Below are positions 1,089 to 8,904 of a DNA stretch of 12,913 nt, piece by piece. Position 1 is the first letter of the stretch. The number at the start of each line of letters is the position of its first letter. The DNA is from Candidatus Kaiserbacteria bacterium (GTDB taxonomy: Bacteria; Patescibacteriota; Minisyncoccia; Phycocordibacterales; UBA918). Location: assembly GCA_020428895.1 (NCBI GenBank), contig JAGQLZ010000042.1, positions 1-12,913 on the forward strand, given 5' to 3'. The translations under genes and the position numbers were made by a program. The notes below the pieces were generated by a model. That model ran no database searches. It worked only from the letters and a program-made list of their open reading frames with translations, and had not been told where the DNA came from.

Positions 1089-1130
1089 CTGACCACCTAT
1101 TCTTAAGTAGATAAATTAAAATTTGTTAAC

Positions 1131-1164
1131 ACAAATCCAAGCCAACATGGCTTGGATTTGTTTT
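1131..1164 (+). terminator. Rho-independent terminator after the first exported-protein gene
   Basis: A perfect 13-bp stem (1131-1143 with 1149-1161) has a 5-base loop (aacat) and is followed by a T-rich stretch (TTTT at 1161-1164, then GTT). It lies 42 bases after the TAG stop. The next promoter candidate begins three bases further on. Confidence 0.9.
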
Positions 1165-4210: not shown

Positions 4211-4250
4211 ATAACAAACGATCCAGTCTTTAGGCTGGATCGTTTGTTAT
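4211..4250 (+). terminator. Hairpin terminator overlapping the next promoter
   Basis: A perfect 16-bp stem (4211-4226 with 4235-4250) has an 8-base loop that can close further by a C-G and a T-G pair. The 3' arm ends in T-rich sequence (gtttgttat) and the 5' arm is A-rich. There is no T-run beyond the stem, because the last bases of the 3' arm are also part of a TGTTATAAT promoter element. Confidence 0.8.
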
Positions 4251-8214: not shown

Positions 8215-8904
8215 ATGAATGAATGGCCAGAAATACTATTAATTGATAAACCTTTAGGCCTGACATCTTTTGATGTTATCAGAAGATTACGACGTAAATA
8301 TAGCGATTCTCATGAGGGAGAAAAAGCTCCTAAAATGGGTCATGCTGGCACACTTGATCCGTTAGCATCAGGTTTAATGATTATTGGGGTTGGTCAAGGA
8401 ACTAAGAATCTTAACGATTTAATAAAGCTCGATAAGGAATACGTGGCAGAAGTATTGATTGGAAAAAAGACCACCACTGGTGATATGGAAGGAGAAGTAG
8501 TTGAGGAAGTAATAGTAAAAGAGGATGTGGAAATTTTGCAAAGCAAAATTTCCACTGAACTAACATCAATGATCGGTACTATCACATTGCCGGTGTCTGT
8601 TTATTCAGCGATTAAAAAAGCGGGTATTCCAATGTATAAACGAGCAAGAGAGGCCGAAAAGACTGGGGAGGTGATAAAAGAAATTCCCGTGCGAGACATG
8701 AAAATCTATGAAGCTGAACTGCTGGATGTTTATAGTGGCGATGGCTTCGCCATCGCCACTATTCGATTTTCTGTTGCTAGTGGCACGTACATTCGCTCAC
8801 TTGGGGAAGAATTAGGAAAGCGTATAAATTATCCGGCAACTTTACAAAATTTGCGACGCACTAAGGTAGGGGAATTTGATATAAAGGATTCTGAAAAATT
8901 ATAA
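8215..8904 (+). CDS. truB: tRNA pseudouridine-55 synthase, catalytic domain only
   Basis: A 229-residue enzyme making pseudouridine 55 in the T-loop of tRNAs. Motif I, KMGHAGTLDPLASGLM (40-55), holds the catalytic Asp48. YSAIKKAG (130-137) and FSVASGTYIRSLGEELG (185-201) supply the conserved substrate-pocket Tyr and the Arg (R194) that contacts the catalytic Asp. The protein ends soon after the LRRTKVGEF stretch (213-221). Full-length bacterial TruB is about 300 residues with a C-terminal PUA-like domain, so that tail is missing, as is common in reduced genomes. Two segments are encoded by perfect DNA palindromes (EDVEILQSKISTE around 103-115 and YSGDGFAIAT around 173-182), both at places where the protein is a few residues longer than E. 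coli TruB by my recollection. The start follows a -10 box with no Shine-Dalgarno. Confidence 0.95.
   Translation: MNEWPEILLIDKPLGLTSFDVIRRLRRKYSDSHEGEKAPKMGHAGTLDPLASGLMIIGVGQGTKNLNDLIKLDKEYVAEVLIGKKTTTGDMEGEVVEEVIVKEDVEILQSKISTELTSMIGTITLPVSVYSAIKKAGIPMYKRAREAEKTGEVIKEIPVRDMKIYEAELLDVYSGDGFAIATIRFSVASGTYIRSLGEELGKRINYPATLQNLRRTKVGEFDIKDSEKL
8527..8555 (+). repeat. Perfect 13-bp palindrome inside truB
   Basis: Arms 8527-8539 and 8543-8555 are exact reverse complements with a 3-base AAA loop. Plan: GTGG, 7 bases, GC-AAA-GC, 7 bases, CCAC. It is read through in frame as VEILQSKIS and neighbours. No T-run follows, so it is not a terminator. Confidence 0.95.
8732..8762 (+). repeat. Perfect 14-bp GC-rich palindrome inside truB
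   Basis: Arms 8732-8745 and 8749-8762 are exact reverse complements with a 3-base TTC loop. Plan: ATA-GTGG, 5 bases, GC-TTC-GC, 5 bases, CCAC-TAT. It encodes YSGDGFAIAT in frame. The core is far richer in G+C than its surroundings. On the minus strand the apex reads GCGAAGC, a known, unusually stable DNA mini-hairpin. Confidence 0.95.

Follow-up and report, generated by a model that had tools for sequence, protein, structure and literature searches.

Perfect palindromes occur in ordinary protein-coding genes of the genome studied here far more often than in synonymously shuffled versions of the same genes, and the excess is strong in the source genome, in the genus member G002 and in 29 further loci of the genus. 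In the source genome nearly all coding stems are perfect, at three genes both arms show paired changes, and palindromes have been gained and lost between genomes. We infer copying between the arms, and not selection, as the cause, with template switching as the copying route. The coding palindromes are probably made and kept perfect by DNA-level copying from arm to arm, most likely through polymerase template switching. A wider reading, which we put forward only tentatively, is that in this genus a process linked to replication or repair may continually produce perfect palindromes within ordinary genes and restore them when they decay. Such a process would be fast enough to act as a mutational force of its own, which changes two protein stretches at once and can override near-constant residues, and would represent a bacterial counterpart of hairworm mitochondria.

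The window, i.e., the whole stretch of 12,913 nucleotides that was analyzed, is contig C41 of the source genome (G000; 671,341 bases in 105 contigs, 80% complete). Genes were called by a simple longest-frame rule. One frame of the window matches Pfam TruB_N (E 2.3e-34) and carries two palindromes, whose coordinates are listed in Table 1. The sequence-only reading had reported exact inverted repeats of 13 and 14 bp with 3-base loops, both translated in frame inside truB, and this description was confirmed, coordinates included; arm complementarity is 100% in both. The predicted folds are strong, with -17.3 kcal/mol (z -6.0) for palindrome 1 and -26.9 kcal/mol (z -7.0) for palindrome 2. Known RNA families were rejected as the identity of the palindromes, as an Rfam scan of the window gave 0 matches at the gathering threshold. 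A second truB-like frame of the source genome, 273 aa long and 32% identical, lies on contig C16:3183-3944 (L002, L003), and several genus members also have two truB-like frames. The TruB of L175, a Patescibacteria MAG, is 61% identical to that of the window. A second SmpB piece, 70% identical, is found at a contig end (G000 C5:8058-8297) and perhaps reflects strain mixture or contamination in the bin.

Table 1 The truB-like gene of the window and the parts of its two palindromes.
Feature	Position	Strand	Basis or remark
truB-like tRNA pseudouridine synthase gene, 229 aa, carrier of palindromes 1 and 2	8215..8904	+	ORF, Pfam
Palindrome 1, left arm, 13 nt	8527..8539	+	complementary to 8543-8555
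Palindrome 1, loop AAA	8540..8542	+	
Palindrome 1, right arm, 13 nt	8543..8555	+	site palindromic with other letters in G002, G005, G019, G020, G047
Palindrome 2, left arm, 14 nt	8732..8745	+	departs from residues of several relatives
Palindrome 2, loop TTC	8746..8748	+	
Palindrome 2, right arm, 14 nt	8749..8762	+	encodes A-I-A-T, near relatives' A-V-A-T

A scan of all 105 contigs looked for perfect stems around loops of 3-8 bases. With arms of at least 12 bases, the genome has 118 perfect inverted repeats, whereas five dinucleotide-shuffled versions averaged 0.2. Arms of at least 11 gave 142 stems, 46 within frames of at least 80 aa and 96 outside them. Synonymous-codon shuffling within each gene, the strictest null used, left 1.1 coding stems with arms of at least 11, compared to 45 observed in the 566 frames without N. 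A chance origin, judged very unlikely from the sequence alone, is excluded by both nulls, and the further similar structures anticipated elsewhere are present in the form of the 46 coding palindromes. The frames of 35 of these 46 have a Pfam match (E <=0.001), two of them below Pfam's cut-off, while ten have none and one was not scanned. The longest coding arm found measures 22 bases. Many of the 96 non-coding stems resemble intrinsic terminators in their A-run and T-run flanks. Three long hairpins of the window (1128-1164, 2652-2693 and 4211-4250) lie directly past gene ends and are of the bidirectional terminator type; palindromes 1 and 2 differ from terminators in lying inside truB and having no T run after the arms.

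The fetched part of G002 contains 27 coding palindromes when counted frame by frame (26 by position), compared to 1.0 in synonymous shuffles, and 15 were found in the 29 genus loci, compared to 0.3. Here, 'genus' is a kinship label that covers 38 of the 79 genomes searched. About 5 kb of the G002 stretches are present twice (overlap of L142 and L163), with no palindrome of at least 11 doubled. Fifteen loci from other families of the order yielded one coding palindrome (0.0 in synonymous shuffles), i.e., 1 in 44,163 coding bases compared to 3.3 expected at the source-genome rate (P 0.16), a sample too small for drawing the border of the excess. In 76 control loci of other bacteria, 12 coding palindromes were counted compared to 4.8 in synonymous shuffles. 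Expressed per 100 kb of coding sequence, the density is 7.5 in the source genome, 4.5 in the G002 part and 0.9 in the 76 loci of other bacteria. The contig scan had kept 80 loci, nearly all from other phyla plus one close relative, L175, in which 20,665 bases held zero coding palindromes. Zero were likewise found in the SmpB locus of G046 and in 15,015 coding bases from five genus loci that surround the other truB.

Common ends and a common apex had suggested a repeat family to the sequence-only reading, which was not borne out. The plan GTGG-N4-9-GC-N3-GC-N4-9-CCAC fits four perfect palindromes genome-wide, two of which are palindromes 1 and 2. The exact core of palindrome 1 occurs in 4 of the 38 genus genomes, at truB only, and that of palindrome 2 in 1 of 38, the source genome itself. 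With cores private to their sites and the plan present at four places, a common repeat family was rejected. The palindromic elements of Rickettsia lie inside genes and are translated with them in frame. Their dispersal as copies of a single sequence has no parallel here, either for the exact cores of palindromes 1 and 2 or in a comparison of all 46 arms. According to the discussion in the available text of PMC6649704, the Rickettsia elements are selfish and lose arm identity over time, whereas palindromes 1 and 2 are private to their sites. Having two palindromes in one gene is unremarkable, because other frames carry two or more (C53:7121-7891, C60:9319-10494 and a C14 frame without Pfam match). 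G002 contains a dispersed family that is unlike the coding palindromes, namely near-identical TTGTTACGTAGCATGTTACGTAACATGCTACGTAACAA with arms of 16-18 at no fewer than eight places (L142, L145, L146, L148, L150, L152, L155 and L172, among the matches listed). An identical 19-pair coding palindrome is shared by G046 and G051 (L265 153-193; L267 2031-2071).

For 17 of the 46 source coding palindromes, an alignment spans the site in the fetched G002 part. At 14 of these 17 sites the length is equal in G002, and three lie within 2-4-codon insertions; as palindrome 2 also comes without added residues, the picture differs from that of an inserted unit of the Rickettsia type. Palindromic in both genomes are only truB palindrome 1 and a glycosylase site, two of the 12 rows in this comparison being the same place. 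The idea that the segments would be present or absent as units in truB alignments failed for palindrome 2, where insertion was rejected since the relatives' rows show no added length, and at palindrome 1 genes that lack a long stem can match the carriers in length. As a whole, the sequence-only reading was right about the non-chance origin, the translation in frame and the many similar structures, and found no support for the common-plan family or for palindrome 2 as an inserted unit.

This truB was found in 25 of the 38 genus genomes; G006 was excluded from the counts for a gap and a frame break at the site, leaving 24 genes. L175 was counted neither as carrier nor as non-carrier, except as a non-carrier on the tree, and G009 was left off the tree. 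Perfect stems at the palindrome 1 site are present in six of the 24 genes, with 13 pairs in the source genome, 15 in G002, 16 in G019 and 17 each in G005, G020 and G047. G049 keeps 8 pairs and the other 17 genes have at most 6. Among the carriers the stem sequence varies and complementarity is kept, and the ends differ between copies (GTGG, GAGG, GCGG, GCAG). In G019, for example, a T-A pair is changed to C-G through ATT to ATC and AAA to AAG, neither of which alters the encoded residue. An N gap falls exactly at this site in L175 (near 10300) and in G006 (C1 near 15340), which would fit if short-read assembly tends to fail at hairpins.

Covariation at palindrome 1 was scored on six aligned rows, i.e., five equal-length carriers and the decayed G049; G020 was excluded for its length. 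The score reached 0.208 compared to 0.109 in shuffles, and seven cells were changed on both sides compared to 2.3, with 0 of 500 shuffles as high for either measure. Pairs with both sides changed numbered 4 compared to 2.0 (29 of 500), which is not clearly above shuffles, and further pair types 6 compared to 7.0 (455 of 500), which is not above them. Synonymous redraws reached the observed stems of five carriers in 76 to 1187 of 200,000 cases with source codon use, and in 11 to 213 of 200,000 with even codon use. On the basis of these redraws, with G020 outside the test, protein constraint was rejected as the cause of palindrome 1. On a tree calculated without the palindrome columns, the carriers need five gains or losses, four of which are forced by well supported branches, and they do not cluster beyond shuffled labels (212 of 500 as low).

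The protein had also seemed slightly longer at the palindromes. This applies to palindrome 1, where the carriers exceed 15 of the 24 genus truB genes by 2-3 residues, and not to palindrome 2, which brings no added length. At the palindrome 1 site G020 is longer still, and G004, G049 and G001 match the carriers yet lack a long stem. Sister truB genes with the same residues and no palindromy, which the sequence-only reading had named as counter-evidence, are not the pattern seen at palindrome 1: sisters with these residues are mostly palindromic and show paired changes, with the decayed G049 as the exception. Palindrome 2 itself was found in none of the relatives' truB rows (24 genus genes compared). 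Its right arm stays near the residues of several relatives, and its left arm lacks their D-R. The right arm thus appears to have been copied in inverted form over the left arm, with the length unchanged.

Concerted change of both arms was also seen in two further genes. In a uracil-DNA glycosylase relative (UDG, contig C57), compared over 22 rows out of 34 genomes with a match, the source genome reads AGA GCC GGC GAA GCC GGC TCT. In G002 and G047, CCC and GGG replace AGA and TCT, and the stems have 11 and 12 pairs. Of the 22 rows, 19 retain the serine; glycine occurs in G002 and G047 only, and alanine in G001. The second gene, a glycosyltransferase (contig C9), carries a 19-pair palindrome in the source genome that is present at that site in none of the 29 fetched relatives. 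Six of 30 rows are palindromic at a different site, near residue 34. There, G050 carries seven added codons that exactly invert the VACGGTG codons before them, so that the insertion is an inverted copy of neighboring sequence, as would be expected of a template-switch product. G019 and G005 show shorter stems at the G050 place, with different but matching letters; the Gly codon is GGG with Pro in G050, GGT with Thr in G019 and GGC with Ala in G005. Five more rows share the added codons but have no long stem. To judge from these alignments, the pattern is the footprint that would be expected from inverted duplication, followed by mending or decay.

If the arms are indeed copied from one another, a hairpin would form in single-stranded DNA during replication or repair, and the growing strand would jump onto its own nearby complement and write an inverted copy. 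This copy would either overwrite one arm in place, as we read palindrome 2, or insert an inverted duplicate that keeps the frame, as in the relatives' glycosyltransferase. Later mismatches would be erased by the same arm-to-arm copying, so that both arms and both encoded peptide stretches would change together. A cellular role of the palindromes would not be required. Template switching creates and maintains hairpins and can produce perfect stems in one event, according to the available part of PMC8794818. In yeast genes, inverted copying of this kind homogenises arms, as proposed here, and leaves multi-base paired changes (available part of PMC8604942).

Stems of 11 to 21 pairs in source genes number 45, far above expectation, whereas those of 9 and 10 pairs, with 13 and 4 cases, are about as frequent as in shuffles (11.6 and 3.2). 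This gap at 9-10 pairs is not general, because G002 has more stems of 9 and 10 pairs than its shuffles (25 and 9 compared to 9.8 and 2.3), and source genes have more stems of 8 pairs (71 compared to 44.6). At a score of at least 12, perfect stems account for 36 of 39 coding and 72 of 104 non-coding cases in the source genome (Fisher P 0.004). In G002 the coding stems are not more perfect (16 of 20 compared to 110 of 122 non-coding), and the control loci have 8 perfect coding stems among 13. With laxer scoring, 36 of 42 coding stems are perfect in the source genome and 16 of 22 in G002. Arm copying is supported less well by G002 than by the source genome.

The palindromes might instead be mRNA hairpins kept by selection, for instance to slow translation or to protect or cut the message, with the paired changes preserving the RNA stem. 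The strong predicted folds are consistent with such a role, as are the paired changes at palindrome 1, whose persistence could come from selection, and an enrichment early in genes, with 11 of 38 palindromes (arms of at least 12) within the first 30 codons compared to 5.8 expected. A stricter scan of wobble-type mismatches likewise returned 4 G-U and 0 A-C in source genes (2 and 2 in G002). However, the larger set of coding stems from the source genome, G002 and the genus loci has no clear excess of G-U over A-C, with 35 compared to 32 at score 9, 20 to 17 at score 10 and 9 to 5 at score 12. Two observations speak against arm copying: mismatches in the control loci lean to G-U (48 compared to 30 A-C), and, by eye, the three bases by which G018 differs from the stem of G017 would leave G-U pairs. 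Selection on RNA stems in turn fits poorly with the greater perfection of coding over non-coding stems in the source genome, though not in G002, with only two of 17 sites being palindromic in both genomes, and with the repeated gain or loss of palindrome 1. We consider it rather unlikely as the main cause. It is still a rival because G002 lacks the 9-10-pair gap and has coding stems that are not more perfect, and because source genes show the 8-pair excess and the 4 G-U to 0 A-C count.

An action as DNA, for instance in recombination, in uptake or through a structure-binding protein, with GGTGG-like outer ends being recognised, appears improbable. Outer stretches such as GGTGGCGA recur more than in shuffles (8 pairs among the 46 arms share at least 8 bases compared to about 2), and 31 of 46 palindromes have more G than C in the six outermost bases of the 5' arm on the sense strand, but there is neither a common core nor a fixed length, the ends of palindrome 1 vary between copies, and codon use may account for the richness of the 5' ends in G. 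Very improbable is the in-frame insertion of a palindromic element that is mobile and dispersed, as known from Rickettsia. Although in-frame palindromes in many genes and the shorter truB of most genus members at palindrome 1 would suit it, the cores of both palindromes are private to their sites across the 38 genus genomes and lengths are mostly equal over G002, and for palindromes 1 and 2 this reading is largely refuted. An artefact of assembly or amplification is scarcely credible: whole-genome amplification is known to yield palindromic chimeric reads (available part of PMC13265396) and the N gap of L175 sits exactly at palindrome 1, but six genomes carry this palindrome with arms that are different yet self-consistent and with open frames, the arms are short, and coding runs on at both sides. 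A 37-pair palindrome in tRNA-like sequence (G000 C93:724-801), whose centre is also on C79, is possibly an assembly effect.

The closest known case is that of the coding palindromes in Nematomorpha (hairworm) mitochondria, as described in the available text of PMC6649704. There as here, perfect inverted repeats lie within functional genes with both arms translated, and the arms change in concert between species, with gains and losses; in our data this holds for truB, the glycosylase and the glycosyltransferase. Few imperfect copies are described for the hairworms, and template switching was proposed there too. In contrast, their repeats are mitochondrial, tens to hundreds of bp long (up to 284 bp) and favour phase 1, whereas the coding arms here reach at most 22 bases, lie on bacterial contigs and are most commonly in phase 2 (19 of 38). 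A 2023 paper, in its available part, treats long inverted repeats embedded in the coding sequences of mitochondria as a feature of hairworms alone (PMC10380579). Template switching is known from 39 yeast genes over strain evolution and from RNA genes, as far as the available parts of PMC8604942 and PMC8794818 go, compared to dozens of perfect coding stems in one small genome here. Among the matches listed from open-licence papers, none described bacterial coding palindromes of this kind, a weak negative, and the available text of two large inverted-repeat surveys (bacteria; all life; PMC10434271, PMC13155455) contains no Patescibacteria terms.

Paired stem changes are usually taken as proof of functional RNA, and here they are found in unrelated coding genes. 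Since, in addition, most of the compared palindromes are lineage-private, a mutation process appears sufficient to generate such changes. If this is true, the genus would offer a natural system for measuring bacterial template switching, linked amino-acid changes would be explained without selection, and the calling of RNA structures from covariation in such genomes would warrant caution.

Exonuclease VII and SbcD are tied to hairpin processing in E. coli. Neither exonuclease VII (XseA) nor SbcD gave a match above cut-off in the 38 genus genomes. Over all 79 genomes searched, XseA was found in 4 and SbcD in 1, compared to 12 and 13 of 14 control genomes. Their loss was rejected as a genus-specific cause, as it is wider than the genus; these nucleases are rare across the order and their loss does not explain the richness of the genus. 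Their absence is perhaps a permissive background, and not a cause.

Among the carriers of coding palindromes, genes for DNA repair and uptake seem to be frequent. These carriers (C10, C11, C18, C22, C25, C42, C57, C60) include a polymerase delta-like protein, DprA, an S24 peptidase and an AddA-like helicase, as well as ComEC, TatD, UDG and an AlkD-like protein.
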